Origin: Sialis fuliginosa
Taxonomy: Eukaryota; Arthropoda; Insecta; Megaloptera; Sialidae
Length of the DNA: 64,000 bases
Assembly (NCBI GenBank): GCA_961205875.1
Contig: OY540813.1
Location: forward strand, 35,249,001 to 35,313,000
Direction of reading: 5' to 3'
Positions 3,398 to 62,182 of this stretch are shown here, one piece after another (position 1 is the first letter of the stretch; each line of letters opens with the position of its first letter). The translations under genes and the position numbers were made by a program. The notes under the pieces are model-generated. The model did no database searches, was not told the DNA's origin, and saw only the letters and a program-made list of their open reading frames with translations.

Positions 3398-4529
3398 CTG
3401 GGGAATAATTCGCAATAAGCTGAATTTTTATATACACCTTCATTTTGTCTTTATAAATAAGGTACCAAAAGTCCCCAACAATCCCATGCGAGCATACTTT
3501 TTTACAGCCCACAAAAGGTGCTAACAATTAGTTTTATGTAAATATCTCTGTATCTATTGGTTCTATGACTAAAATAGTTATTATCAAATATAAAGTTTAG
3601 AAAATTACCTACAATAAAGATCTTACAACTTTTTTCTTACAAGTAATCGTTTTCGCTTATTAAGAGGGTATTCTATATTATTTTATCAATAAACAGGGTT
3701 TCAAAAATATGTGTTCAAAACCCTATACCTCAATTCCAAAAATTGACGGAGTTACAGCGATTTGAAGATGATGCGTAACATTAAATAGCCAGCTATGTAT
3801 AAACATTGAACGCGTTTTTCTCGAAACTAAAAACTGAAAATGGTTGCCATAATATCACAAGATCTACTGAACCAATTGACTCAAAATTTGCTGTTCACCT
3901 TCAGTACACATGTTATTTACCACTGTTAGCAGAATTGAGTCAAAAACATTTTTTTTTATTGTATAGATAGCGAAAGATTTAGTTAGTTAGGCTATAGCGG
4001 GTTGCAAAAAAAAATAATAATTAAAATAAAAAAATGGCGGCATTTTGAAAAGTGACTATTCATTTTATACACAGAAAATTTGAAGTCAATCGGTTTAGTA
4101 GATCTTGTGATATTATGGCAGCCATTTTCAGTTCAAATCGCTGTAACTCCGTCAGTTTTTGGAATTGAGGTATAGGGTTTTGAACACATATTTTTGAAAC
4201 CCTGTTTATTGATAAAATGCAAAAAAAAAATATATTTTTACATTTTTAGACTAGAATACCCTCTTAATAAGCGAAAACGATTACTTGTACGAAAAAAGTT
4301 GTAAGATCTTTATTGTAGGTAATTTTCTAAACTTTATATTTGATAATAACTATTTTAGTCATAGAACCAATAGATACAGAGATATTTACATAAAACTAAT
4401 TGTTAGCACCTTTTGTGGGCTGTAAAAAAGTATGCTCGCATGGGATTGTTGGGGACTTTTGGTACCTTATTTATAAAGACAAAATGAAGGTGTATATAAA
4501 AATTCAGCTTATTGCGAATTTTTCCCCAG
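3398..4529. mobile_element. Foldback element, 1.13 kb, CTGGGG termini
   Basis: Two long inverted arms (about 3398-3900 and 4080-4529) face each other across a spacer of about 180 bp. The ends read CTGGGGAATAATTCGC and its inverted counterpart GCGAATTTTTCCCCAG. No transposase is encoded, so it is a non-autonomous foldback or large MITE. No clear target-site duplication was seen, and the superfamily is unknown. Confidence 0.85.
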
Positions 4530-9200: not shown

Positions 9201-10153
9201 CTAGCTGCTACCCGCGACTTCGCTCGCGTGGATTTCGAAACCCTTCATATGTGACAGGGGGTAAAATATTAAATTTATCTTATTTTTAGTTTTCTTTAAT
9301 TATACAAAATCGTAAATGTGTCGGCTCCTATGCGAGATAGAGGGGTTTTTCCGCCCTAAAACCCCCGCCCCCGTGGTATTTTTCCCGTTGGATCGAATAA
9401 AACCACTTACAACCCTCATATGTAACGGGTCAAATATTAATTACTAAAAAAAATTAAAAATTTTCCTCCCCCTTGCAATTCCTTAGGGGTTGAATTTTCG
9501 AGATACGAAATAGCCTTAATCCGTCCTCGGGATGTAAGCCATCTCACTGCCAAATTTCATCAAAATCGGTAAAGCAGTTTAGTCGTGAACAGGTAACAAA
9601 TAGACAGACTGAGAGATACACTTTCGTATTTATAATATAAGTCGCGACTCCTATGTAAGATAAGGGGTTGTTTTGTCCCCCTAATAATCCCTCTTCCGTA
9701 ATATTTTTGCCCGCCAGATCGATTGTAATCAATTACAACTCTTCATATGTGACAGGGGGTAAAATATAAAATTTTTCTTATTTTTAGTTTTCTTTCATTA
9801 TACAAAATCGTAAATATCTCGGCTCCTATGCGAGATAGAGGGTTGTTTTGCCCCCTAAAACCTACGCCCCCGTGGTATTTTTCCCGCCGGATCGAATAAA
9901 ACCACTTACAACCCTTCATATGTATCGGGGGGTAAAATAATAATTACTAAAAAAAATTAAAAATTTTCCACCCCCTTGCAATTTCTTAGGGGTTGAATTT
10001 TTAAGATACGAAATAGCCTATGTCCGTCCTCGGGATGCAAGCTATCTCACTGCCAAATTTCATCAAAATCGGTAAAGCGGTTTAGCCGTGAAAAGGTAAC
10101 AAACAGAAAACAGACTGACAAACACACTTTCGCATTTATAATATTAGTATGGA
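9201..10153 (-). mobile_element. Inner short Helitron-like unit with its own 5' TC end
   Basis: On the minus strand a second plausible 5' end, TCCATACTAATATTATAAAT, begins at 10153 and is preceded by A. The same CTAG end as the long element closes it. It contains an internal tandem duplication: about 9240-9560 matches about 9730-10050. The tail resembles a very common insect repeat end (ATCAAAATCGG). Short ORFs here are not genes. Confidence 0.7.
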
Positions 10154-11393
10154 TATCGTAAAATGTCCAAATATTACTTTACTTAATATTTTATTAACTA
10201 ATTAAAATTTGAACAATAAAACTTAAATTTTTCGAAAAATTGTTCATTCGAAGAATTTTGATTCAAAAAATTGTGATTCGAAAAATTGTGTTTCGAAAAA
10301 TTTACACCAAACCTAATAATTAATTTCGATATTTTACCTTTCATAGAAGTGAAATGTTTCTTCATATTTAAATTTTCAATCAATATAGGCATTTCAAAAT
10401 ATTTAATTGTTAATATGTGTCAAAAATCATTTAATTGTTCGACAAAATATTTTAAAGAGACATAATCATAGTAACCTAAATTAATAAAATAAAATATTGA
10501 AACCGTAAATTATAAAATTCCGTATTCCATGGCTAGGTACTATGTTTTTATATACCTAAATTATAACATACCTGGTTAAATTATTTCTATATCGTCCCCT
10601 CCAAGGCAAAGTATCGTAAGATACACTTTTTGCGAAATTGAGTTATCGATTCTAAAAATCTCATATATAAGCGACAAAATTCTCTTTTCCGCTAAAAAAT
10701 CTGTTAAAACTTTTATCGTATTCATCCAGACAATGTATTCTAAGCACCGATATCTGTTTTATGAAATATCGTAACCAACAATAATATAGTATCGTAACCA
10801 GTGACGTAGCTAGCCCTGAGTGGATCCTGACTGGCCTATATGGTAGGTACTTTCCCGCGACGGAATAATATAGTGCTGTGACGGAGTGCTTTCTTATTTA
10901 TTCATTAGAGCTGGGCTTTTATCAATTTTAATTTTATTAATTTTAAGATATTTTAGAAAAATCGTACCTGTTAAAACTTTATTGCACAAACTAAATATGG
11001 TTTCTCTATGAGGTTTTTTCAATATATTTTTTACCCTCAATAACTCAATTTGGTTGATATTGAAGTATGATGTAGAACAGTGCTTCCTAAACTTTTCCTA
11101 CGACAGAACACTTCACAAATCCTGAAATTTTAATGGAACGTCTTGGTTATTTTGTAAGTAATATATAAAATAAGGAAAAAAGTAAATTTAAATCAGTCAA
11201 GCATGTTTGAACTTCTCGCAGCATTTAAAAACATTGAATATTAACTTTGATATTTTTTACGCTTAAACTGATAAGACATACGTTATATATCGTAGTACAG
11301 GTATTCCTCGACTTACAACCGAGATAGGTTTCTAAACATCGATCGTAAATAGAATAAGTTGTAAGTTAACACGTACAATATGTACATATTTTT

Positions 11394-12200
11394 ACTTCCA
11401 TGTTCCGAAGGAAATGGAAGTATTGTAATACCATCGAAAAATCGTGTCCGAGAAAATGACAAATTCTGATTGTACTAACTTCAAAACGTAAAGAAAAGTT
11501 AATTTCCGCATGGCGGCTGTGCGTGTGTCTGTGTGTCTGTGTGTCCGTGTGTCTGTGTGTCTGTGTGTCTGTCTGTCAGGATGTAGATTTTTTTTTCGTT
11601 CACGATAACTACTGTAAAAATGCTCCGATCTGAATTATTTTTGGGGAAAATATTTGTCTCAGTGAGTACTCCAGACTTATTGATTTTGGTGCTAATCGGA
11701 TAAGGGGTTTTGGAAATATTCGAAATTTTGTAACTTTTTTCGTCAAAAAAATGAATATTGCGAGTATTATCTCACTAATTTTGATAAGATTTGGTACATT
11801 TGCAGTTCAATTAAATCTAAGGGACATTTATTATTTGTACGTGCCTAAACAGCCATTAAAGGGATGAAAAACACACTTAAAATTTGAATTTTAAATACTA
11901 ATATGTCATTAATTCATGTTTCCTTGGAAACAAATGCAACTAAATTCAAATTGTCAAATTAGTTTTTCTACGAATGTGAATTATGTTTTTGACATTAGAA
12001 AACTAATATTTATATACAAATGGCAAAAAGAGCTGTAACCGTTGTAAGTATATATGTTTTTTTAATGTATTACGATATGTATATTCATAGTAGTAGGTTA
12101 TATAAATAAAATATTTAAAATTAAAAAATGTATATTTAAAAATTATTTAAAAAGATAGATAGAACATGGAAGTCATGTATGGTTCTCCATACCGATATTT
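11394..12200. mobile_element. Insertion specific to Helitron copy 1, about 0.8 kb
   Basis: Copies 2 and 3 read straight through this point (ACATATTTTTGCTTTGG). Here the sequence is split, with ACTTCCATGTTC near the left edge and GAACATGGAAGT near the right. ATATTT occurs at both junctions as a possible short duplication. It contains a GTGTGTCT microsatellite (about 11520-11570). No transposase; class unknown. Confidence 0.65.
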
Positions 12201-13734
12201 GCTTTGGACGTTTTCCTTGATGTGAAGCGAATCGCATTTTCTATACATAACAAACAGTTGCGGGTTCCCAAAAATATCTACATAAATAATAATAAATTAC
12301 ATTTTTGGGAAATTCCCGGAACTGTTTGTTTCATTTATGTAATATGTGCATGTAAGAAAGAGACAAAGACAATTATAAGTCGAGGATTACCTGTATATTT
12401 GTTTACGATGCGTTTTCAACTCTTGTCGTATGAAAATATATTGCATACTAAATACATATTATGACATTTGTTTCTGATATGACAACGACAAAAAATTATT
12501 TTATGACTTCTGGTACATGTATTGTATTACATCATGTACTTACATGATTTGAACATTTTATGAATATTAAAAATAATTTCATTTTTGGTTTTTCTGCTCG
12601 TGTCTTTCAAAAATTCATCAATGTGTCTATATAAATACATTATTAGCTCTTGTAGATACTCGTACACCCTTTGTACAATTAATTAATTAATTACAATCAA
12701 ATATAGGTCTTGTCAATTGAATGAAGCTTTCGTAACAATTTGCAATAAATCAACATCTTGTTTTAATTTTGTAAATGTACATTTTAGGTTAGTACATTGG
12801 GTAAAGATGACAGATATACAGTTTCAAACAACAATTAAAATAATATCATTTAAAATTACAATGTTAATTTGAAATTATATAAATTCTTCTGATATTTATG
12901 ATTACAAATAAATATAATAAAATACCTATACCTATGAAAGTAAAAATATTGATAATTCAATGACTTAAGATTTAAAAAATGTCATTATATACCTACTTAA
13001 TTTTTATTTGTACCGGGAACACATATCTATCGCCGAATGTTGGTCGAATTGTGTCCGAATGCTGTAATTATTTGTCTTCAATTTTTTTGTCAAATTTATT
13101 TATGAAAATTAAATTATTTATTACATTAGAGTTGTGCATATTTTTTCGTTCGTTATGCTCTTTATATTTCTTTTTTGTTATATTTTATTGTTCACTTCAA
13201 AATTTTAAATGGCCACTGACATTTAAAATTTTTAAAAATAATCAATAAAATATAATGTATCCATAGTTACGACATTTGCAATTAATTTAGTAAATGCTTA
13301 AAGCGCATTATATGTAAACGTATTTTGTTTATTTTCTCCTCTTTAACATATCTTTTTCAAAAATCAGACACGGGTTCATGGTTGCCAATTAACCAAAGTA
13401 TTTGAAAAAAATTAAAAAAATCTAATATCGGTTTTCGTTTTGATACTTTTTTACATCAAAACTTTTTTTTTCATTTTTTTTAAATCTGAAATTTGAACCT
13501 TACATTATATCACCCAAGGAATATAGAAAAAATTATAAAAAAATTCTAACTTTTTTTTTGAAAAATTGGGGGCCCCTTGTCACCCCATTTATGAACTTTT
13601 TCAAAAAAGGCCCACTAGTTGTTATTTTTTACCCCCAAGGAATATATATACCAAATTTCAAGGTTCTCCGATGAGTGGAAATGGTCAAAAAAATGATTAT
13701 CAGTGAGTCAGGGCACTTCATTATATATAGTAGA

Positions 13735-14013: not shown

Positions 14014-17000
14014 CTAGCTGCTACCCGCGACTTCGCTCGCGTGGATTTCGAAACCCTTCATATGTGACAGGGGGTAAAATATTAAATTTATCTTATTTTT
14101 AGTTTTCTTTAATTATACAAAATCGTAAATGTGTCGGCTCCTATGCGAGATAGAGGGGTTTTTCCGCCCTAAAACCCCCGTGGTATTTTTCCCGCTGGAT
14201 CGAATAAAACCACTTACAACCCTTCATATGTAACGGGTAAAATATTAATTACTAAAAAAAATTTAAAATTTTCCTCCCCCTTGCAATTCCTTAGGGGTTG
14301 AATTTTCGAGATATGAAATAGCCTTAATCCGTCCTTGGGATGTAAGCCATCTCACTGCCAAATTTCATCAAAATCGGTAAAGCAGTTTAGTCGTGAACAG
14401 GTAACAAATAGACAGACTGAGAGATACACTTTCGCATTTATAATATAAGTCGCGACTCCTATGTAAGATAAGGGGTTGTTTTGTCCCCCTAATAATCCCT
14501 CTTCCGTAGTATTTTTGCCCGCCAGATCGAATGTAATCAATTACAACTCTTCATATGTGACAGGGGGTAAAATATTAAATTTTTCTTATTTTTAGTTTTC
14601 TTTCATTATACAAAATCGTAAATATCTCGGCTCCTATGCGAGATAGAGGGTTGTTTTGCCCCCTAAAACCTACGCCCCCGTGGTATTTTTCCCGCCGGAT
14701 CGAATAAAACCACTTACAACCCTTCATATGTATCGGGGGGTAAAATAATAATTACTAAAAAAAATTAAAAAATTTCCACCCCCTTGCAATTTCTTAGGGG
14801 TTGAATTTTTAAGATACGAAATAGCCTATGTCCGTCCTCGGGATGCAAGCTATCTCACTGCCAAATTTCATCAAAATCGGTAAAGCGGTTTAGCCGTGAA
14901 AAGGTAACAAACAGAAAACAGACAGACAAACACACTTTCGCATTTATAATATTAGTATGGATATCGTAAAATGTCCAAATATTACTTTACTTAATATTTT
15001 ATTAACTAATTAAAATTTGAACAATAAAACTTAAATTTTTCGAAAAATTGTTCATTCGAAGAATTTTGATTTGAAAAATTGTGATTCGAAAAATTGTGTT
15101 TCGAAAAATTTACACCAAACCTAATAATTAATTTCGATATTTTACCTTTCATAGAAGTGAAATGTTTCTTCATATTTAAATTTTCAATCAATATAGGCAT
15201 TTCAAAATATTTAATTGTTAATATGTGTCAAAAATCATTTAATTGTTCGACAAAATATTTTAAAGAGACATAATCATAGTAACCTAAATTAATAAAATAA
15301 AATATTGAAACCGTAAATTATAAAATTCCGTATTCCATGGCTAGGTACTATGTTTTTATATACCTAAATTATAACATACCTGGTTAAATTATTTCTATAT
15401 CGTCCCCTCCAAGGCAAAGTATCGTAAGATACACTTTTTGCGAAATTGAGTTATCGATTCTAAAAATCTCATATATAAGCGACAAAATTCTCTTTTCCGC
15501 TAAAAAATCTGTTAAAACTTTTATCGTATTCCTCCAGACAATGTATTCTAAGCACCGATATCTGTTTATGAAATATCGTAACCAACAATAATATAGTATC
15601 GTAACCAGTGACGTAGCTAGCCCTGAGTGGATCCTGACTGGCCTATATGGTAGGTACTTTACCGCGACGGAATAATATAGTGCTGTGACGGAGTGCTTTC
15701 TTATTTATTCATTAGAGCTGGGCTTTTATCAATTTTAATTTTATTAATTTTAAGATATTTTAGAAAAATCGTACCTGTTAAAACTTTATTGCACAAACTA
15801 AATATGGTTTCTCTATGAGGTTTTTTCAATATATTTTTTACCCTCAATAACTCAATTTGGTTGATATTGAAGTATGATGTAGAACAGTGCTTCCTAAACT
15901 TTTCCTACGACAGAACACTTCACAAATCCTGAAATTTTAATGGAACGTCTTGGTTATTTTGTAAGTAATATATAAAATAAGGAAAAAAGTAAATTTAAAT
16001 CAGTCAAGCATGTTTGAACTTCTCGCAGCATTTAAAAACATTGAATATTAACTTTGATATTTTTTACGCTTAAACTGATAAGACATACGTTATATATCGT
16101 AGTACAGGTATTCCTCGACTTACAACCGAGATAGGTTTCTAAACATCGATCGTAAATAGAATAAGTTGTAAGTTAACACGTACAATATGTACATATTTTT
16201 GCTTTGGACGTTTTCCTTGATGTGAAGCGAATCGCATTTTCTATACATAACAGTTGCGGGTTCCCAAAAATAGCTACATAAATAATAATAAATTACATTT
16301 TTGGGAAATTCCCGGAACTGTTTGTTTCATTTATGTAATATGTGCATGTAAGAAAGAGACAAAGACAATTATAAGTCGAGGATTACCTGTATATTTGTTT
16401 ACGATGCGTTTTCAACTCTTGTCGTATGAAAATATATTGCATACTAAATACATATTATGACATTTGTTTCTGATATGACAACGACAAAAAATTATTTTAT
16501 GACTTCTGGTACATGTATTGTATTACATCATGTACTTACATGATTTGAACATTTTATGAATATTAAAAATAATTTCATTTTTTGTTTTTCTGCTCGTGTC
16601 TTTCAAAAATTCATCAATGTGTCTATATAAATACATTATTAGCTCTTGTAGATACTCGTACACCCTTTGTACAATTAATTAATTAATTACAATCAAATAT
16701 AGGTCTTGTCAATTGAATGAAGCTTTCGTAACAATTTGCAATAAATCAACATCTTGTTTTAATTTTGTAAATGTACATTTTAGGTTAAAGATGACAGATA
16801 TACATTTTCAAACAACAATTAAAATAATATCATTTAAAATTACAATGTTAATTTGAAATTATATAAATTCTTCTGATATTTATGATTACAAATAAATATA
16901 ATAAAATACCTATAACTATGAAAGTAAAAATATTGATAATTCAATGACTTAAGATTTAAAAAATGTCATTATATACCTACTTAATTTTTATTTGTACCGG

Positions 17001-17719
17001 GAACACATATCTATCGCCGAATGTTGGTCGAATTGTGTCCGAATGCTGTAATTGTTTGTCTTCAATTTTTTTGTCAAATTTATTTATGAAAATTTAAATT
17101 ATTTATTACATTAGAGTTGTGCATATTTTTTCGTTCGTTATGTTCTTTATATTTCTTTTTTGTTATATTTTATTGTTCACTTCAAAATTTTAAATGGCCA
17201 CTGACATTTAAAATTTTTAAAAATAATCAATAAAATATAATGTATCCATAGTTACGACATTTGCAATTAATTTAGTAAATGCTTAAAGCGCATTATATGT
17301 AAACGTATTTTGTTTATTTTCTCCTCTTTAACATATCTTTTTCAAAAATCAGACACGGGTTCATGGTTGCCAATTAACCAAAGTATTTGAAAAAAATTAA
17401 AAAAATCTAATATCGGTTTTCGTTTTGATACTTTTTTACATCAAAACTTTTTTTTTCATTTTTTTTAAATCTGAAATTTGAACCTTACATTATATCACCC
17501 AAGGAATATAGAAAAAATTATAAAAAAATTCTAACTTTTTTTTTGAAAAATTGGGGGCCCCTTGTCACCCCATTTATGAACTTTTTCAAAAAAGGCCCAC
17601 TAGTTGTTATTTTTTACCCCCAAGGAATATATATACCAAATTTCAAGGTTCTCCGATGAGTGGAAATGGTCAAAAAAATGATTATCAGTGAGTCAGGGCA
17701 CTTCATTATATATAGTAGA
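14014..17719 (-). mobile_element. Helitron-like element, copy 2 (3.7 kb)
   Basis: Same termini as copy 1: minus-strand TCTACTATATATAATG starts at 17719 and CTAG ends at 14014. The host bases are A and T. It lacks the 0.8-kb insertion of copy 1. The inner 5' TC end lies at 14961. Near-identity over the full length suggests recent amplification or segmental duplication; different left flanks favour transposition. No coding capacity. Confidence 0.8.
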
Positions 17720-20645: not shown

Positions 20646-22427
20646 TATATATGAGCATTTCCAGTAGTTTTTTAAAAAACAGGGCGCACGTATGTCACCG
20701 ATTTTGCTCCCAATTTTTTTTCTCAAAGTACATATCAAAAAAACATGTTTTCCAAAATATTTTCCCCCCGCCCCCTTTTTTGACCGAATTACGATTTTTT
20801 AAACTTTTGAAATCGAGCGAAATTAGACTTTTTTCGATAGTACCTTATTTTTCAAAATGTCCCTTATTATGCATGTTATAGGGCTCATTTTCTTCATTTT
20901 TTGTTGATCTATCATTTGAAATCGGTTTCAGAGCCGAATATTCAATTTTGGCCGAATGCGGTACCAAAACATTAAGTTTGATTTTTTGTAAAAATAGTCA
21001 ATTTTGAAATTGCCGCCAAATATTTTGGTTTCAACCAAAATACTTCCGGTATAGGTCATTTTATTCTATTTCTTATGTAGTTTCCAAATATTTATACATT
21101 TTTTAATTTGGTCAAAAACTTTTAAAGTTACACTTGTTTTTAGATGTCTTATTTTCCAAAAAACGCTATATTCACACCATTAAAACTTTTTTCTCTATAC
21201 TCCAAATTGCACCGAATTTTGGCAAAAGTTTCCTTCCTTTATCCTTAAAACAACTCTCAACAAACATTTTTTCATATTGAGCTCCTAAGTGAGATATAAT
21301 TTTTATAACACACCTAATTACACGTGTATTAAAGATAAGAATTTTCAGTGTTTCTGAAATATCGGGGCTCCTGATAATCGAATAAAAAATATACCATTTA
21401 ATTCGTTATGAAATTCCCTACAAATCTACATAAGTTTAATTTTTTAATTACAAAACCTATAAAAAAATAAAAGCCGAGCGAGTGCAAGCGAACCAGTCTT
21501 AAAAATCGTACATATTAAACAACGAAGTTATGAGACACTATTCATTACATTTAAAGTTGTTATTAAATAAATACGAAATCGATGTACAAAGTTTTTATTT
21601 ATTTGTAGGTTTTGTAATTAATCTAAAAAAATTAAACTTATGTAGATTTGTAGGGAATTTCATAACGAATTAAATGGTATATTTTTTATTCGATTATCAG
21701 GAGTCCCGATATTTCAGAAACACTGAAAATTCTTATCTTTAATACACGTGTAATTAGGTGTTTTATAAAAATTATATCTCACTTAGGAGCTCAATATGAA
21801 AAAATGTTTTTTGAGGGTTGTGTTAAGGATAAAGGAAGGAAACTTTTGCCAAAATTCGGTGCAATTTGGAGTATAGAGAAAAAAGTTTTAATGGTGTGAA
21901 TATAGCGTTTTTTGGAAAATAAGACATCTAAAAACAAGTGTAACTTTAAAAGTTTTTGACCAAATTAAAAAATGTATAAATATTTGGAAACTACATAAGA
22001 AATAGAATAAAATGACCTATACCGGAAGTATTTTGGTTGAAACCAAAATATTTGGCGGCAATTTCAAAATTGACTATTTTTACAAAAAATCAAACTTAAT
22101 GTTTTGGTACCGCATTCGGCCAAAATTGAATATTCGGCTCTGAAACCGATTTCAAATGATAGATCAACAAAAAATGAAGAAAATGAGCCCTATAACATGC
22201 ATAATAAGGGACATTTTGAAAAATAAGGTACTATCGAAAAAAGTCTAATTTCGCTCGATTTCAAAAGTTTAAAAAATCGTAATTCGGTCAAAAAAAGGGG
22301 CGGGGGGAAAAGATTTTGGGAAACATGTTTTTTTGATATGTACTTTGAGAAAAAAAAATTGGGAACAAAATCGGTGACATACGTGCGCCCTGTTTTTTTA
22401 AAAACTACTGGAAATGCTCATATATAT
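20646..22427. mobile_element. Foldback element, 1.78 kb
   Basis: Two nearly identical inverted arms of about 830 bp (about 20646-21472 and 21590-22427) flank a loop of about 120 bp. The outer ends read TATATATGAGCATTTCCAG and its complement. Landmarks GGGCGCACGTATGTCACCG and CGGTGACATACGTGCGCCC mirror each other. No transposase. Units A, C and D lack it in the H3-H1 interval, so it inserted after the unit was duplicated. Confidence 0.88.
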
Positions 22428-22662: not shown

Positions 22663-23679
22663 TAGGGTGTGCCAAAAAAATCAACAAATTTTTTTTTTCA
22701 AAAAGTTCTTGAAATTTCGTTAGAAGATATCAAAATAAAAATTCAGTCAAAATTTAAGCCCTTAATATCAATATTTAGAGGTCGCGAACTGAATTTTTCG
22801 ATTTTTCATTTAATTAACACGGAAAAAAAATTTCTAGAAAGTTTGGATTTTTATTTCTCTCGATTGAACGAACTCCATCGAACGAACAATCAATATTCTT
22901 ACAGGAAATTGAACGCTGAATAAAAAAGGTCTCTTATCATTTTTTGAAAAATTCAATCCTCCGAAAGTTATTCAAGGTTGAAGTTGAGCTTATTGCAAAT
23001 TTGTGGATTATTTCACTTTTACGGTAAATTTATTATTGTTTAGAGGAAAATTGTTATTGATTTTTAAAAAATATCCGATTCCGACAACATAGAATATCGA
23101 AATTGATAATTAGTTTAAAAAAATAAAAAAAATAATGGGACTTTCAAGTATATTTTTTCTTCATTGTTGTTTTAAATATCAAAATTTTTTTACCAAATGT
23201 ATGTTAGCTGATTGATTATTTTTTTTATTTTTTTAAACTAGTTATCAATTTCGATATTCTATGTTGTCGGAATCGGATATTTTTTAAAAATCAATAACAA
23301 TTTTCCTCTAAACAATAATAAATTTACCGTAAAAGTGAAATAATCCACAAATTTGCAATAAGCTCAACTTCAACCTTGAATAACTTTCGGAGGATTGAAT
23401 TTTTCAAAAAATGATAAGAGACCTTTTTTATTCAGCGTTCAATTTCCTGTAAGAATATTGATTGTTCGTTCGATGGAGTTCGTTCAATCGAGAGAAATAA
23501 AAATCCAAACTTTCTAGGAATTTTTTTCCGTGTTAATTAAATAAAAAATTCAGTTCGCGACCTCTAAATATTGATATTAAGGGCTCAAATTTTGACTGAA
23601 TTTTTATTTTGATATCTTCTAACGAAATTTCAAGAACTTTTTGAAAAAAAAAATTTGTTGATTTTTTTGGCACACCCTA
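22663..23679. mobile_element. hAT-type foldback element, 1.0 kb, with 8-bp TSD
   Basis: The ends are TAGGGTGTGCC and GGCACACCCTA, and the arms are almost perfect inverted repeats of about 490 bp. The target duplication GTGTATAT is exact (22655-22662 and 23680-23687). The paralogous region at about 55995-56012 (ATAGGTGTATATATATATAC) is the empty site. An 84-codon ORF inside is a chance reading of one arm. Superfamily from TSD length and TIR. Confidence 0.93.
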
Positions 23680-27709: not shown

Positions 27710-28231
27710 CAGTGTTTTCCAAAGTTTATGTTACTACGCCTCTAATCTTGCCCCCCATTAATTTAATAAAATAATTAAGACACGTTTCAAAAAGGTATAA
27801 AATGTATTAAAACAAAAAAAAAACAAAAACTCGATAGATGAATGTGCTATGTGTCTATTAGCACAAACTTCATTAAATCTAGGTGTAATTGAGGAAAGTG
27901 CTACTCGTATATTTTTCCTACTACGATATTCGGATGTCATTGCAATTAATGCAGAAAATCCCGCTTCGCATAATAATGAAGGTACGAATGGAAGCAGTAC
28001 TTGCATTGCTTTGCTTGAAACATATTCTTCACTTTAATACAATCAAAATTAAAATAGGGTTTCACTCTGAAATTTTTGTTGAAGTATCACATAATTTAAT
28101 CATTCCCTCTTTTCAATAGTTGTCAATCTAAATCTACACAGATAATTTATAAAAAAAAATAGTATTATTTATTTATAATTATACCTAATGTTGTTATGCA
28201 AATTACATTTCTGTTAAAATTTTCGCGCTTA
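27710..28231 (-). mobile_element. Internally deleted hAT element, 522 bp
   Basis: One end is CAGTGTTTTCCAAAG at 27710; the other lies at about 28231. Flanks ACTTAATT (27702-27709) and ACTTAATG (28232-28239) form a 7-of-8 target duplication. It carries the C-terminal end of a hAT transposase. The same element with the same target site, inverted, lies at 34206-34735. Confidence 0.82.
27758..28045 (-). pseudogene. hAT transposase C-terminal fragment
   Basis: The minus-strand frame encodes LPFVPSLLCEAGFSALIAM, then SEYRSRKNI, RVALSSITPRF. This is the pattern of the hAT dimerisation region seen in ZBED5-like transposon proteins (CEAGFSAL, KYRSRLN, RVALS). The catalytic part is missing, so it is a remnant, not a gene. 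Confidence 0.8.
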
Positions 28232-44868: not shown

Positions 44869-45818
44869 AAGTAGGTTTCCAGAGTACCGTGTGTGGCGGG
44901 CTCTACAGTTCTAATATTGAAAATTCTGTAGTTTACCCCCTTTGTATAGCAAACTCATGATTTTTGACAGTTGCTGGTAGGTATATCAGAAAACTCTTCC
45001 GTGTGCAAAGGGTTAATAATCAATCCTTTTTTAGAGATTAGGTGCTAGATATGTAAAATGGCAACACTTAATTGTATTTATTTTGATTTCTAAATCGGGT
45101 ATACTGAGAATAGATATTAATAATACGATAACGAATAATTTTAGGTATACAAAAGTTGTTTGCACTTGAAAGTTTTTTTAAGTTCCAAAAACATAAGGTG
45201 TTCCATTAATACAAATTGAGTTTTGTTACTTTGAATTATTAATGTTTGCAGTTTTTTAAATCTTGTAAAGTTGGAAAGTCAATAATTTAAAATATATATT
45301 TATATATTGTTCCACTGTCTAGTTGAATTTCGTATTGATTATATTTTATTATTTTGGAGGAAATTGTTTATTGTTGATTTTCATAAGAAGGGATTCAAAC
45401 ATAAATGTTTAAATAGGGGTTGAGTCAATTTAAATATATTTGTGTTTTGTTTTATTAATTTATAAATTATAAATTTTTTTTACGCTACCATAGGAATACA
45501 GGGTGGGCGAGCAACAATTTTCTATAATTTTTTACTCAGAAAGAAAAATCATAAAACTAAAAAAGAGCTTAGAACTAAGCAAGGACTCTCGGAGAATTGT
45601 TTTTAAAATTTATTGTTAATTTTTTATGCAACTTTTTTATAAAGAAAAAATTCTGAAAAAAAAAATGAATTACATATTATATAAAAAAAATTGTGAGAAT
45701 CTTTGCATAATTTTAAGTACATTTTACCTCTTGCAATTATTTATAAAAATTAGTAATTTTCGAGTAAAAAAATATGGAAAATCCAGAAAGTTTTCTTCGG
45801 TTTACTCCTTATAATAAA
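44869..45818. other. AT-rich spacer, no gene
   Basis: No gene is supported. The 62-residue frame at 45626 is lysine/asparagine-rich AT sequence without a domain. TAGGAATACAGGGTGGGCGAG at 45491 looks like a repeat terminus. Confidence 0.5.
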
Positions 45819-46088
45819 CTAGCGCGCTGGACCCGGTGTTACTCGAGTATATACATTTAATCTGTAAAGTAAAGATTCTGTAATAATTTTTTTCAATTAA
45901 AGTATTTCTATATTGGAATCAATTAATTTTCAAGTTTTTTAATACAATGTCATGGATAACAGCCCAGAAATCAAGTTCATACAAAGTCTCCGCGTTACAG
46001 AGCCTTCCGATTTTCTATAAGATATGTCCCCGCAGCATGATATGTACTTATTTTGTATCTTTATGAATATGAAGGAATCCTTACATAA
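45819..46088 (-). mobile_element. Helitron-like end, second family
   Basis: The minus strand ends GTAACACCGGGTCCAGCGCG followed by CTAG, with host T. The intact relative at 46089 has the hairpin ACCCG-AGTAACAC-CGGGT. The 5' end is probably at the border with the next copy. Confidence 0.5.
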
Positions 46089-46380
46089 CTAACGCTTTGG
46101 ACCCGGTGTTACTCGGGTTTATAAATTTAATCTCTAAAGTAAAAATTATTTAATTTTTTTTCTGTTCAATTATATCTATATTGGAATACAGTAATTTCCA
46201 AGTTAATTATTTTCAAAATTTTAATTTAAAACAAAATTCACACCAAATTATTTAATTTTAAAAAAATACACACATTATTATAAGTCGAATCTCGATAAAT
46301 CAAAATCCGTTCACATCTATGGTTTCTCTATCTATGTCACCTAACTATAACCTCTATAACTCGAAACTCTCATTAAAAAA
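46089..46380 (-). mobile_element. Helitron-like end, second family, tandem copy
   Basis: AACGCTTTGGACCCGGTGTT at 46091 repeats the preceding copy's start, and the next 110 bases are similar too. Right boundary not determined. A third degraded start lies at about 57882 (CAGCGCATTGGCTTGGTGTT). Confidence 0.45.
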
Positions 46381-46795
46381 TTTACTTCTAATATTGGAAT
46401 ATAATAATTTCCAGATCAACAAATAATTAAATTTTTAATTTAATGTTGAATTTCGCCTTGACATGTTGGTGTATCCTAAGTATGAACGATTGGCGTAGTG
46501 TTTTTGTTTGATATGTTTTAAACTCTTGTCGTATAAAAATATATTACATACTTATATCACATTTGTTTTTGATACGACAACGATAAAAAATTGTTTTATA
46601 ACTTTTACGCCATAACTATAGAATTTAAAATGTTTCAAATTAATATAAAGAGTGACAAATTAAGAGTGACCCATTTTTAATTAATGATATCGAAAACAGT
46701 AATCACTTAGTGAACCTAATTTTAACTGTAATATCTTTTGTTAACCTTAACCAATTAAATTATTCAGACTCAGTGGTGGTTCCGACAACAATTAA

Positions 46796-47140
46796 ATGTT
46801 CCCGTGGCTTCAAATCGCAAGACAATTGGAAGTGAATCGGAGAAAAAAAACAAACAGGATTGAAGCAAATTTTAATCAATCAAATCTAATTTTGAAGAAA
46901 GATTTACACTTTCATCCATACAAATGGCAAAACGCTCAAAAACTTTTTCCAAATGACTTAAACACATGTTTGGATTTCTGTCGTTGGATTTTAGATAGAG
47001 GGAATAATTTTGTTAACATCATAATTATGAGCAACGAAGCGCATTTCCAATTTCTTGGCGAGAGGAATAAACAGAATTTGTGTTACTCGTCTGTCGAAAA
47101 CCATCAATCGGCCATAACACCATTTTTACAAAAACTTTAA
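46796..47140 (+). pseudogene. Mariner-like transposase fragment
   Basis: A 114-residue frame with LKKDLHFHPYKWQNAQKL, then LDFCRWILDRG and MSNEAHFQFLGERNKQN. This is the insect mariner-like pattern LKKDLHxHPYK...FSDEAHF...G.VNKQN. The expected first catalytic aspartate (SDEAHF) is Asn here. The C-terminal catalytic part is absent. Non-functional. Confidence 0.85.
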
Positions 47141-47176
47141 GGTTCACAAAAGATTTGATAGATAAAATTAGGCCCA

Positions 47177-47996
47177 CTAAAAGTGCGTTCCAGGGATGAA
47201 TCTGGACCCTATTTCAGCCAAAGCGCCGTCTTCTGACAGTATCTGGAAGTTCCTGAACCATATACGATTATCCAAAACACTGAATGTGTAAACATTATTG
47301 AAGAACGGCTGGTTCTTCGGGTGGTGGTTAGGAACACCAAATGTTTGACTGAATACTTCCTTCATCAGAACATAATGAGGTTCTTCGGTGAAATTATTAT
47401 TGAAGGAAAGTAATGCACGTGAACCTCTTAAGCAATTCCCTGTTAGTTTTAACTCCTTATCGTATTAACTGAAAAAATAAATGTTTTGTTTGGTAATTTT
47501 TTTAATTTTAACTCGTTCAAAACTAAAAATAATACAGAACAAAGAAAAATATCACAGTTAAAAAACATTATTATAATAGTTTTTTTTAAAATATTTTAAC
47601 TATCCGGCATAGAAATAATTTTGATTGTAGAAATTATTGTAAAATGCAAATTTTGATTTCTGCAACAATCACAAAATAATGCAAATCATTTCAACGATGA
47701 AAAATATGAACCCCGGTAAACAAAGAATCTTAAGGATATTTAATTAAATTATAAAAAAGAAGGGACTTACTCTCCTGACAGATGTCCGCTAACTCCGTTG
47801 TTTACAACTTTGGTATATACGTATAAGGAATTGTATCAGATATATCCGGTTTAATTTCTGGCTTTTACTGACACTCATTGGTTCTTACAATTGCATCATT
47901 CAGAATATTTGACACGTCATGATCGTTTCAAACGCCAAACGGAACGATGTAATCAACGATCGTAACGTTACAAGTGCCATCTGGAACGCACCCTAA
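47177..47996. mobile_element. Small TIR element carrying a gene fragment
   Basis: AAGTGCGTTCCAG at about 47181 and CTGGAACGCACCC at about 47982-47994 form inverted ends. It lies inside the mariner-like element and holds the BRX1-like exon just inside the left end. No clear target duplication; superfamily not determined. Confidence 0.65.
47198..47468 (-). pseudogene. BRX1 (Brix-domain ribosome biogenesis protein) exon fragment
   Basis: The minus strand encodes ELKLTGNCLRGSRALLSF, then PHYVLMKEVFSQTFGVP, then HHPKNQPFFNNV, then DNRIWFRNFQI and ALAEIGSRF. This matches the Brix domain of BRX1/BRIX1, a 60S assembly factor, as known from the family (TGNCLKGSRPLL, HPKSQPF, DNRIWFRN, EIGPRF). TTATTTTTTCAG, a splice acceptor, stands directly before the exon. 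There is an apparent 1-bp frameshift near its start. The fragment stops where a transposon end begins, so it is a captured genomic exon, not a gene. Confidence 0.9.
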
Positions 47997-49578
47997 GTGA
48001 TTACTTATTTCGATATTATTAATTAAGAATGGGTTACTCTTAATCTGTCACCCTGTATTACACATACCTTTAGTCTTATATGAAAAAGACTCCGACATGG
48101 AAGTCGAAACATCAAGCCATACATATGTTCATATGGACAACGGCAACAAAAAAACATTTAAACGTTGACATCAGTTCGGAAACCAAAGTTCATATATGAA
48201 CAGCCATGAAAGCCTACAGATGATAATTACTTTTTTATGATAATGGAATAATGCTGACTTTTAAATATATTGTATATACTTACATGATTTGAAATAACAT
48301 TTTATGAATATTAAAAATAATTTCATTTTCGGTTTTTCTCCTCGTGTCTTTCAAAAAGTCATCTAAATTAAATCAATGTTTCTATATAAATATATTATTA
48401 GTAGCTTGTATACATTCTTGTTGTACATCCCTTCTACAATTAATTACAATTAACTATATATTAGTATATACCTACATTTCGTATTAAAAAAGATTAACCT
48501 TTTTTAAAATCAAATATTCTTGTAAATTAAACGAATTTTGTCACTGTATTCGAACAATTCGCAATAAATCATTTGAAATCAGTTCAACTATTTAAAAGTT
48601 AGAGCCGTTAGAGCACAGTAGATACACATTGACATTTTAGATGTATGATATACAGATTGGTACAGATGCACAGATGCTTGCATACATAGATAAGTAAATG
48701 TGGATCCTTAACAGATGTACAAATGCTAACAATTAAAAAAATATCATTTAAAATTACGTCAATGTTAATTGTTAATTAAATAAATACTTCTGATATTTAA
48801 AATACCTATGTAGGTAAAAATATTGATATATCAATAACTTTAGGTTTTAAATTTTAATGTATTACCTATGTTATGCCGAATGTTAGTCATTCGAATGCTG
48901 TAATTGTTTGTCTTCAATTTTTTTGTCAAATTTATTTATGAAAATTTTAATTATATATTACATTAGAGTTGTGCATATTTTTTCATTCGTTATGTTCTTT
49001 ATATTTCTTTTTTGTTATATTTTATTGTTCACTTCAAAATTTTAAATGGCCACTGACATTTAAAATTTTTTAAAATAATCAATAAAATATAATGTATCCA
49101 TAGTTACGACATTTGCAATTAATTTAGTAAATGCTTAAAGCGCATTATATGTAAACGTATTTTGTTTATTTTCTCCTCTTTAACATATCTTTTTCAAAAA
49201 TCAGACACGGGTTCATGGTTGTCAATTAACCAAAGTATTTGAAAAAAATTAAAAAAATCTAATATCGGTTTTCGTTTTGATACTTTTTTACATCAAAACT
49301 TTTTTTTTCCTTTTTTTTTCATTTTTTTTAAATCTGAAATTTGAACCTTACATTATATCGCTCAAGGAATATAAAAAAAATAATAAAAAAATTGTAACTT
49401 TTTTTTTGAAAAATTGGGGGCCCCTTGTTACCCCATTTATAAACTTTTTCAAAAAAGGCCCACTAGTTGTTATTTTTTACTCCCAAGGAATGTATATACC
49501 AAATTTCAAGTTTCTCCGATGAGTGGAAATGGTCAAAAAAATGATTGTGAGTGAGGACACTTCGTTATATATAGTAGA

Positions 49579-52500
49579 CTAGCTGCTACCCGCGACTTCG
49601 CTCGCGTGGATTTCGAAACCCTTCATATGTGACAGGGGGTAAAATATTAAATTTATCTTATTTTTAGTTTTCTTTAATTATACAAAATCGTAAATGTGTC
49701 GGCTCCTATGCGAGATAGAGGGGTTTTTCCGCCCTAAAACCCCCACCCCCGTGGTATTTTTCCCGCTGGATCGAATAAAACCACTTACAACCCTTCATAT
49801 GTAACGGGTAAAATATTAATTACTAAAAAAAATTTAAAATTTTCCTCCCCCTTGCAATTCCTTAGGGGTTGAATTTTCGAGATATGAAATAGCCTTAATC
49901 CGTCCTTGGGATGTAAGCCATCTCACTGCCAAATTTCATCAAAATCGGTAAAACAGTTTAGTCGTGAACAGGTAACAAATAGACAGACTGAGAGATACAC
50001 TTTCGCATTTATAATATAAGTCGCGACTCCTATGTAAGATAAGGGGTTGTTTTGTCCCCCTAATAATCCCTCTTCCGTAGTATTTTTGCCCGCCAGATCG
50101 AATGTAATCAATTACAACTCTTCATATGTGACAGGGGGTAAAATATTAAATTTTTCTTATTTTTAGTTTTCTTTCATTATACAAAATCGTAAATATCTCG
50201 GCTCCTATGCGAGATAGAGGGTTGTTTTGCCCCCTAAAACCTACGCCCCCGTGGTATTTTTCCCGCCGGATCGAATAAAACCACTTACAACCCTTCATAT
50301 GTATCGGGGGGTAAAATAATAATTACTAAAAAAAATTAAAAAATTTCTACCCCCTTGCAATTTCTTAGGGGTTGAATTTTTAAGATACGAAATAGCCTAT
50401 GTCCGTCCTCGGGATGCAAGCTATCTCACTGCCAAATTTCATCAAAATCGGTAAAGCGGTTTAGCCGTGAAAAGGTAACAAACAGAAAACAGACAGACAA
50501 ACACACTTTCGCATTTATAATATTAGTATGGATATCGTAAAATGTCCAAATATTACTTTACTTAATATTTTATTAACTAATTAAAATTTGAACAATAAAA
50601 CTTAAATTTTTCGAAAAATTGTTCATTCGAAGAATTTTGATTCAAAAAATTGTGATTCGAAAAATTGTGTTTCGAAAAATTTACACCAAACCTAATAATT
50701 AATTTCGATATTTTACCTTTCATAGAAGTGAAATGTTTCTTCATATTTAAATTTTCAATCAATATAGGCATTTCAAAATATTTAATTGTTAATATGTGTC
50801 AAAAATCATTTAATTGTTCGACAAAATATTTTAAAGAGACATAATCATAGTAACCTAAATTAATAAAATAAAATATTGAAACCGTAAATTATAAAATTCC
50901 GTATTCCATGGCTAGGTACTATGTTTTTATATACCTAAATTATAACATACCTGGTTAAATTATTTCTATATCGTCCCCTCCAAGGCAAAGTATCGTAAGA
51001 TACACTTTTTGCGAAATTGAGTTATCGATTCTAAAAATCTCATATATAAGCGACAAAATTCTCTTTTCCGCTAAAAAATCTGTTAAAACTTTTATCGTAT
51101 TCCTCCAGACAATGTATTCTAAGCACCGATATCTGTTTTATGAAATATCGTAACCAACAATAATATAGTATCGTAACCAGTGACGTAGCTAGCCCTGAGT
51201 GGATCCTGACTGGCCTATATGGTAGGTACTTTCCCGCGACGGAATAATATAGTGCTGTGACGGAGTGCTTTCTTATTTATTCATTAGAGCTGGGTTTTTA
51301 TCAATTTTAATTTTATTAATTTTAAGATATTTTAGAAAAATCGTACCTGTTAAAACTTTATTGCACAAACTAAATATGGTTTCTCTATGAGGTTTTTTCA
51401 ATATATTTTTTACCCTCAATAACTCAATTTGGTTGATATTGAAGTATGATGTAGAACAGTGCTTCCTAAACTTTTCCTACGACAGAACACTTCACAAATC
51501 CTGAAATTTTAATGGAACGTCTTGGTTATTTTGTAAGTAATATATAAAATAAGGAAAAAAGTAAATTTAAATCAGTCAAGCATGTTTGAACTTCTCGCAG
51601 CATTTAAAAACATTGAATATTAACTTTGATATTTTTTACGCTTAAACTGATAAGATATACGTTATATATCGTAGTACAGGTATTCCTCGACTTACAACCG
51701 AGATAGGTTTCTAAACATCGATCGTAAATAGAATAAGTTGTAAGTTAACACGTACAATATGTACATATTTTTGCTTTGGACGTTTTCCTTGATGTGAAGC
51801 GAATCGCATTTTCTATACATAACAAACAGTTGCGGGTTCCCAAAAATATCTACATAAATAATAATAAATTACATTTTTGGGAAATTCCCGGAACTGTTTG
51901 TTTCATTTATGTAATATGTGCATGTAAGAAAGAGACAAAGACAATTATAAGTCGAGGATTACCTGTATATTTGTTTACGATGCGTTTTCAACTCTTGTCG
52001 TATGAAAATATATTGCATACTAAATACATATTATGACATTTGTTTCTGATATGACAACGACAAAAAATTATTTTATGACTTCTGGTACATGTATTGTATT
52101 ACATCATGTACTTACATGATTTGAACATTTTATGAATATTAAAAATAATTTCATTTTTGGTTTTTCTGCTCGTGTCTTTCAAAAATTCATCAATGTGTCT
52201 ATATAAATACATTATTAGCTCTTGTAGATACTCGTACACCCTTTGTACAATTAATTAATTAATTACAATCAAATATAGGTCTTGTCAATTGAATGAAGCT
52301 TTCGTAACAATTTGCAATAAATCAACATCTTGTTTTAATTTTGTAAATGTACATTTTAGGTTAGTACATTGGGTAAAGATGACAGATATACAGTTTCAAA
52401 CAACAATTAAAATAATATCATTTAAAATTACAATGTTAATTTGAAATTATATAAATTCTTCTGATATTTATGATTACAAATAAATATAATAAAATACCTA

Positions 52501-53322
52501 TACCTATGAAAGTAAAAATATTGATAATTCAATGACTTAAGATTAAAAAAATGTCATTATATACTTAATTTTTATTTGTACCGGGAACACATATCTATCG
52601 CCGAATGTTGGTCGAATTGTGTCCGAATGCTGTAATTGTTTGTCTTCAATTTTTTTGTCAAATTTATTTATGAAAATTTTAATTATATATTACATTAGAG
52701 TTGTGCATATTTTTTCATTCGTTATGTTCTTTATATTTCTTTTTTGTTATATTTTATTGTTCACTTCAAAATTTTAAATGGCCACTGACATTTAAATTTT
52801 TTTAAAATAATCAATAAAATATAATGTATCCATAGTTACGACATTTGCAATTAATTTAGTAAATGCTTAAAGCGCATTATATGTAAACGTATTTTGTTTA
52901 TTTTCTCCTCTTTAACATATCTTTTTCAAAAATCAGACACGGGTTTATGGTTGTCAATTAACCAAAGTATTTGAAAAAAATTAAAAAAATCTAATATCGG
53001 TTTTTGTTTTGATACTTTTTTACATCAAAACTTTTTTTTTCCTTTTTTTTTCTTTTTTTTTAAATCTTAAATTTGAACCTTACATTATATCGCCCAAGGA
53101 ATATAAAAAAAATAATAAAAAAATTGTAACTTTTTTTTTGAAAAATTGGGGGCCCCTTGTTACCCCATTTATAAACTTTTTAAAAAAAGGCCCACTAGTT
53201 GTTATTTTATACCCCCAAGGAATGTATATACCAAATTTCAAGTTTCTCCGATGAGTGGAAATGGTCAAAAAAATGATTATCAGTCAGTCAGTAAGTCAGG
53301 GCACTTCGTTATATATAGTAGA
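49579..53322 (-). mobile_element. Helitron-like element, copy 3 (3.7 kb)
   Basis: The 5' TC is at 53322 and CTAG at 49579-49582. It is inserted exactly at the 5' terminus of the older copy: plus-strand ...AGTAGA is followed directly by CTAGCTGC. Same internal organisation as copy 2, including the inner TC end near 50532. Lysine/phenylalanine-rich frames at 49277 and 53009 are repeat sequence. Confidence 0.82.
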
Positions 53323-60020: not shown

Positions 60021-60592
60021 GACCTTTTTATTTTATTTATTTTTTGCGTAAAAAGTTCACATCTTGATAAATTGACGCCTAAATGGTAAGAAACAATAAG
60101 AAAGAACACATTTTTCATTATTACATATTGTTTTTAAAATCACTATAACATTTAACAACTCCAAACAATGAACTAAAAATTATCTATATCAATTGTGTGT
60201 AAAAATAAACATACAAACTAGTTTCATTTCTTTGTTTATATCTGCCTATATTAATAAAGTCACAGTATAAAGAATAAAGATGCATTATTATTATTATTAT
60301 TATTATTATAAAAAAAAAAATAGAATTACCTGACTTAATAACGTATGTTAGCTTAAATAGCCTTCCGAAAATTGTAACGATCGTTATCTAAAATAATAAT
60401 AATAAATTCTCCTTTTAACACGGTGAAGTTAATAAAAAATCAGTTCCTTTTCAGGTGTTATTTCATATTATAAATTTATATTAATATCAAAAATACCGTT
60501 TTGATTAGTATAAACTTGTAAAATCCATTCCATGGACTCGCCCCTATTTAATTTAAAAATTTTAACGGTATGAATTTTATTTCACAATTATC
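60021..60592 (+). repeat. Left arm of a 572-bp inverted repeat
   Basis: H3-H1 spacer sequence (GACCTTTTTATTTTATTTAT to TTATTTCACAATTA), facing its inverted copy at 61611-62182 across about 1 kb. Small differences include the length of an ATT microsatellite around 60290. Confidence 0.88.
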
Positions 60593-61610: not shown

Positions 61611-62182
61611 TATAATTGTGAAATAAAATTCATACCGTTAAAATTTTTAAATTAAATAGGGGCGAGTCTATGGAATGGATTTTACAAGTTTATACTAATC
61701 AAAACGGTATTTTTGATATTAATATAAATTTATAATATGAAATAACACCTGAAAAGGAACTGATTTTTTATTAACTTCACCGTGTTAAAAGGAGAATTTA
61801 TTATTATTATTTTAGATAACGATCGTTACAATTTTCGGAAGGCTATTTAAGCTAACATACGTTATTAAGTCAGGTAATTCTATTTTTTTTTTTATAATAA
61901 TAATAATAATAATAATAATGCATCTTTATTCTTTATACTGTGACTTTATTAATATAGGCAGATATAAACAAAGAAATGAAGCTAGTTTGTATGTTTATTT
62001 TTACACACAATTGATATAGATAATTTTTAGTTCATTGTTTGGAGTTGTTAAATGTTATAGTGATTTTAAAAACAATATGTAATAATGAAAAATGTGTTCT
62101 TTCTTATTGTTTCTTACCATTTAGGCGTCAATTTATCAAGATGTGAACTTTTTACGCAAAAAATAAATAAAATAAAAAGGTC
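61611..62182 (-). repeat. Right arm of a 572-bp inverted repeat
   Basis: Inverted copy of 60021-60592. Beyond its inner end (61536-61610) it keeps extra H3-H1 spacer sequence (ACTTTCATATGAATACAG) that the left arm has lost, so this arm is the more complete one. Confidence 0.88.

Follow-up and report, generated by a model that had tools for sequence, protein, structure and literature searches.

A BRX1 gene fragment inside nested transposons of Sialis fuliginosa, very probably captured once by a PIF/Harbinger-like element and spread by a Helitron

A piece of the BRX1 gene, comprising the end of an intron with its splice acceptor and most of the exon behind it, lies inside a short PIF/Harbinger-like element with terminal inverted repeats (TIRs), which is nested in a mariner-like element inside a Helitron of Sialis fuliginosa. 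Very probably, this arrangement goes back to one capture of BRX1 DNA by the PIF/Harbinger-like element, and the piece has since been spread as a passenger of the Helitron. The stretch of DNA that we analysed, 64,000 nucleotides in length, is referred to as the window, and coordinates are those of the window unless another locus is named. The nest consists of the following features.

45819..49578, minus strand: non-autonomous Helitron, 3760 bp, 5' TCTACTATATA at 49578 and 3' CCAGCGCGCTAG at 45819
45831..45848, minus strand: 3' hairpin of the Helitron, with a 5-bp stem, an 8-nt loop and a distance of 12 nt to the CTAG end
46648..48055, no strand assigned: mariner-like element, about 592 bp once the inner element is subtracted, TA flanks, right TIR split by the inner element
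46796..47140, plus strand: degenerate open frame in the mariner-like element, transposase-like by eye only
47178..47180, no strand assigned: left target duplication, TAA
47181..47993, no strand assigned: inner TIR element, PIF/Harbinger-like, 813 bp, 13-bp TIR GGGTGCGTTCCAG
47194..47468, minus strand: captured piece of the BRX1 exon, 275 bp, corresponding to 276 of the 284 bases of the parental exon, with a 1-nt gap just behind the acceptor
47469..47618, minus strand: captured BRX1 intron piece ending in the acceptor TTTTTTCAG, 150 bp, aligned to the parent intron at L069:4897-5041
47619..47993, minus strand: non-BRX1 part of the inner element, no match to the 9.9-kb parent locus
47994..47996, no strand assigned: right target duplication, TAA

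The translated minus-strand frame at 47177-47464 matched the Pfam Brix family (E 2.9e-19, 70.3 bits against a cut-off of 28.2). Among solved structures its best match was human BRX1 (8fkp, E 6.6e-36), one of six matches in all, the others being four more BRX1-named chains and one Brix-domain chain. These matches bear out the original prediction that the frame belongs to the BRX1 family. That prediction had placed a 270-bp exon at 47198..47468; the BRX1 exon piece is indeed there, and its extent is corrected to 47194-47468 (275 bp).

When the genome (392,097,322 bases, 20 contigs) was searched with the N-terminal portion of human BRX1, the parent gene was located at one place, C13:3928101-3928355. 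The parental locus (L069, G000:C13; 9.9 kb) holds an N-terminal exon, an intron, an exon and then a further exon with IKIFAGSFG, the exon/intron borders being taken from sequence and protein alignment, without transcripts. The two parental features that correspond to the fragment are as follows.

L069:4858-5041: parent intron, 184 bp
L069:5042-5325: parent exon, 284 bp, with a GTAAGT donor behind it

Positions 376-800 of the inner element align to L069:4897-5317 with 88% identity. In the intron part, 130 of the 145 aligned bases are identical to L069:4897-5041, and in the exon part (element positions 526-800) 244 of 275 are identical to L069:5042-5317. The acceptor TTTTTTCAG stands at the same place in fragment and parent, and the parental exon border lies exactly there; had the parent gene shown no border at this point, the original prediction would have failed. 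Since parental intron sequence precedes the acceptor and the exon border coincides with it, the fragment was copied from DNA, as had been proposed together with the retention of the acceptor. The fragment lacks the last 8 exon bases and the 3' donor of the parent. One base is absent right behind the acceptor, and a frame entered by splicing would therefore be wrong.

PIF/Harbinger elements have short TIRs and a 3-bp TWA target duplication. Both were found in the inner element, and we infer that it belongs to this superfamily. In the window copy one TIR has AA in place of the first GG of GGGTGCGTTCCAG, and in the majority consensus of the copies the ends match at 13 of 13 positions. The target duplication reads TTA on both sides in 21 of 40 copies and TAA/TTA in 17, and two copies have changed ends; as all copies occupy one nested site (see below), these duplications represent one insertion and not 40. 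The BRX1 copy directly abuts the left-hand 13-bp TIR (window orientation). A host gene piece is thus copied between the TIRs of a TIR element while its parent lies elsewhere, which is what defines a Pack-TIR. A donor-like GAGA|GTAAGT occurs at 47771/47770 in the non-BRX1 part, 302 bp upstream of the kept acceptor. In the 298,085 bases of fetched loci, many of which overlap, 124 sites lie within one change of GGGTGCGTTCCA; 105 are in the usual element context and the remaining 19 are by their context also at element ends. Viral contigs scanned with the TIR pattern and with a near-Helitron-3'-end pattern gave 0 matches for each.

The mariner-like element has TIRs (inverted repeats I1 and I2) that are 88% identical over 66 nt and 84% identical over 44 nt. 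When the flanks of the inner element were joined, the right mariner-like TIR aligned to the left one. TA stands beside both ends in 40/40 copies, which share one insertion. The frame at 46796-47140 gave no Pfam match above the cut-off (only a sub-threshold Intu_longin_3) and no credible PDB match (E 1.1), so the mariner-like class is assigned from the TIRs and TA. The joined-flank alignment, together with the TAA and TA duplications, supports the nesting of the TIR element in the mariner-like element. The full order that had been proposed, in which the exon lies in the TIR element, this in the mariner-like element and the latter in a Helitron-like element, is likewise supported.

Helitrons are characterised by a 5' TC, a 3' CTRR and a palindrome of 16-20 nt about 11 bp from the 3' end, and insert between A and T without target duplication, as described in the available text of PMC4067079. 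The minus strand of the outer unit starts TCTACTA and ends GCGCGCTAG, giving the 5' TC and the 3' CTRR. The 3' hairpin, at 18 nt, falls within the expected size range; it is weak (-4.2 kcal/mol, RNA parameters) and has one G-U pair in its stem. Ends were compared at 20 long loci. The base beside the 45819-side end is A in 20/20 (three of these are tandem junctions), and the base beside the 49578-side end is T in all 17 readable non-tandem ends; the other three are rearranged, followed by another Helitron, or outside the fetched stretch. Judged from these flanking bases, insertion was between A and T without target duplication. The 45819-side end is present in 20/20 long loci and both ends in 18/20, although at L052 the first Helitron end is visible in only one of two end comparisons. 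From about 45809-45818 to about 49578 the unit runs in one piece in 16/20 long loci and in two pieces in 2/20 (the remaining two, L056 and L067, are rearranged or extend past the fetched stretch). The outer element had been described as truncated; with its TC start, CTAG end, hairpin and recurring ends, it is instead of full length. Another Helitron adjoins the 49578 side of the window copy, and at the start of three long loci (L053, L059 and L063) a further Helitron copy is joined head to tail.

Several other Helitron sequences were observed. The genome has 30 Helitron_like_N matches; two span the full model, their frames having 1675 and 1660 codons, and two others are partial and lie in frames of 1987 codons. 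The frames of 1675 and 1660 codons (C9:1083925 and C12:951765) are candidate working Helitrons. Within the BRX1 Helitron, a second, internal 3'-end-like copy with the hairpin kept is present (45806-45936 and 46078-46204, 82% identical), as though the element had run past a former end and acquired another. A second Helitron family occurs in the window at 9201-13734, 14014-17719, 49579-53322 and 54437 (end only). Its 3' end, GCAGCTAG with a strong hairpin, differs from that of the BRX1 Helitron, while about the first 690 bases are common to both at 98%. One of its copies is fused to the BRX1 Helitron in head-to-tail orientation, without any intervening base. We rejected the idea that this family shows the clean empty site of the mariner-like insertion, as the block missing from it is larger (unit positions 1303-2974, versus 1524-2931 for the insertion).

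Clustered H2A, H2B, H4, H3 and H1 genes, recognised by eye, occupy window positions 1982-59590 in irregular order, with divergent H4-H3 and H2A-H2B pairs and large transposon-rich spacers. The cluster contains large, nearly perfect inverted repeats (93-99.7%) at 60021-60591 / 61612-62182 and 3398-3675 / 4252-4529, and the same set includes 20646-21472 / 21593-22426 and 22663-23679. An open frame at 27758-28033 on the minus strand resembles by eye the C-terminal end of a hAT/ZBED-type transposase.

The original prediction had called for a check for other copies, and we found the BRX1-bearing element at 49 loci or more. With the exon as query, 40 of 56 candidates were scored, at 98-100% identity; the 40 copies compared throughout are the window copy (L001) and L009-L047. 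With the parental sequence as query, 40 of 58 candidates were scored, namely the parent and 39 places, of which 7 were new relative to the exon-query list. All 39 non-parental matches cover the query from base 38 to base 454 or 458, and these uniform end points indicate one capture. With the non-BRX1 part as query, 40 of 59 candidates were scored and 8 were at places new relative to the exon-query list; BRX1 is present in each of the two that were fetched, one of which has an internal deletion. The BRX1 piece is therefore present at at least 49 loci (40 + 7 + 2), or about fifty in the genome, and capture at a single locus is ruled out. The inner element occurs at at least four more loci, which are not included in the count of 49. 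Among the matches listed, none placed the inner element outside the nest or showed it without BRX1.

All copies point to the same nested site. One flank of the inner element is common to 40/40 copies and both flanks to 39/40, the flank of L046 diverging a few bases after TTA. Helitron sequence lies beside the nest in 40/40 copies; L035 and L046 have no match to the 45819 end within the fetched stretch. Beyond the Helitron the loci differ: among the left flanks (400 bp, 20 loci) only those of the tandem junctions L053, L059 and L063 resemble each other. Five pairs of right flanks share sequence, as do some left-right pairs, which indicates that some insertions lie in repeats. Multicopy Pack-TIRs that move by their own transposition have distinct sites and target duplications, whereas here one nested site is found in 40/40 copies. 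Spread by the inner element itself is rejected on this ground, and the Helitron rather than the Pack-type element is the likely vehicle. The recurrence of the outer edges in 18/20 long loci likewise argues for the Helitron as carrier. These comparisons suggest that the Helitron is the likely amplified unit.

The following course of events would account for these results. A single event would have brought about 421 bp of BRX1, made up of 145 bp from the intron, acceptor included, and 276 of the 284 bases of the exon, into a short TIR element, presumably by template switch or by gap filling and repair. The resulting Pack-TIR-like element would then have inserted into the right TIR of the mariner-like element, with TTA duplication, inside the Helitron. 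The Helitron, mobilised by rolling-circle transposition through Rep/helicase that was presumably supplied in trans, would have spread the nest to about fifty loci. Capture probably preceded nesting, the one observation that suggests this order being that the BRX1 piece abuts the TIR. The copies differ from each other by a median of 1.0% (mean 2.2%, largest 15.9%; 780 pairs, about 2.3 kb), and 39/40 differ from the parent by 10.5-12.1%, while L028, which has a deletion, reads 26%. The copies are thus closer to each other than to the parent, indicating that capture is older than spread.

A different order of events would keep the single capture and the Helitron spread. BRX1 may have been copied into the TIR element after nesting, as filler DNA in break repair inside the Helitron, which would amount to a Helitron capture. 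We regard this as a possible but doubtful course. It is consistent with the 40 compared copies being in the same nest and with the two extra fetched copies also carrying BRX1, and filler-DNA capture has been proposed for insect Helitrons (available text of PMC6544945). However, the piece ends exactly at the 13-bp TIR, as in Pack-TIRs, and internal break repair would be more likely to leave subterminal sequence. The source of the fragment might also differ. The same text discusses horizontal Helitron transfer in which insects are involved, and a fragment brought by such transfer from the BRX1 of another lineage might explain why 18/28 exon differences to the parent are synonymous against about 0.39 expected (P 0.010; the expectation is a rough estimate that assumes a copy neutral since capture and a conserved parent). 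We consider such an origin unlikely, because the AT-rich intron piece is still as similar to the resident gene as given above and 9/28 of the exon differences touch CpG. Fast CpG sites may account for part of the synonymous excess, or another source lineage may do so. Most exon differences to the parent are synonymous, to a greater extent than in a simple neutral copy, although the fragment looks non-coding.

In the preferred reading, capture before nesting followed by Helitron spread, the BRX1 piece would have no function as an exon. It would gain one if transcripts of the element or of its neighbours were spliced onto the kept acceptor, giving chimeric or regulatory RNA, and animal Pack-TIRs are sometimes transcribed as chimeras (available text of PMC8277862). 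The acceptor string TTTTTTCAG is unchanged in 38/40 copies (TTTTATCAG in one, no match in L028, where the deletion lies), and the donor-like site is seen in at least 34/40. Intact splice sites mean little, however, in copies so alike, and the frame shift just behind the acceptor and the missing downstream donor speak against such a role. Per-copy frame substitutions lean synonymous (47 against 35, with 59/82 at third positions) and so lean away from plain neutrality, but this count includes inherited changes many times. Distinct changes among the copies (9 synonymous and 19 nonsynonymous, against an expected share of 0.24 for the former; P 0.37) fit neutrality and give no clear sign of selection. 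A functional exon is thus very unlikely. Slightly less probable still is that the nest serves as a dispersed, spliceable exon cassette whose donor-like site and BRX1 acceptor would feed BRX1-like RNA into transcripts; if so, the parent gene could be affected, by way of small RNAs for instance, or chimeric transcripts could arise. The 95-codon open stretch could suggest a retro-copy or a real exon of a window gene, a reading that we give practically no weight: the parental intron upstream of the acceptor rules out a retro-copy, and the frame shift and absent donor, in an exon that ends 8 bases short of the parental donor and continues into the TIR, rule out a coding gene. From its sequence the piece is best read as a passenger pseudo-exon, frame-shifted, lacking a 3' donor and without clear selection among copies.

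If the nest spread as proposed, a host exon could reach high copy number without an active capturing transposon, by riding inside a Helitron. The results also call for caution: gene pieces in Helitrons need not be Helitron captures, and nested TIR elements should be checked first. Because a single genome provides the parent, exact borders and about 50 copies, related species would allow the order in which capture, nesting and spread took place to be tested directly. Our literature search, which covered few subscription journals, found no published insect Pack-TIR that had been multiplied within a Helitron. Within that literature, the kind of element is already known, and the combination and the copy number are new.

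Plant Pack-TYPE elements spread by their own transposition. Like the inner element, they are non-autonomous TIR elements with captured coding DNA (available text of PMC8903248); unlike it, they belong to a plant setting. Multicopy Pack-TIRs are rare in animals: in the available text of one large survey, 370 Pack-TIRs are reported from 100 genomes, none of them in insect reference genomes and only four cases being multicopy (PMC8277862). A further multicopy Pack-TIR, the fly Ssk-FB4 family, has distinct target duplications (PMC8277862, Tan et al. 2021, in the same text). The inner element resembles these animal Pack-TIRs as a short TIR element with a host gene piece (421 bp versus their median of 224 bp), and it differs from them in that the BRX1 nest is present at 49 or more loci with one shared nested site, having spread with the surrounding Helitron. 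Helitron gene captures are common in insects, and a survey of silkworm Helitrons cited in the available text of PMC6544945 counted 3724 fragments of 268 genes. The BRX1 Helitron likewise carries and multiplies a host gene piece. Unlike those captures, however, one end of the BRX1 piece borders the TIR of another transposon inside the Helitron, and the Helitron therefore probably carries rather than captures it.
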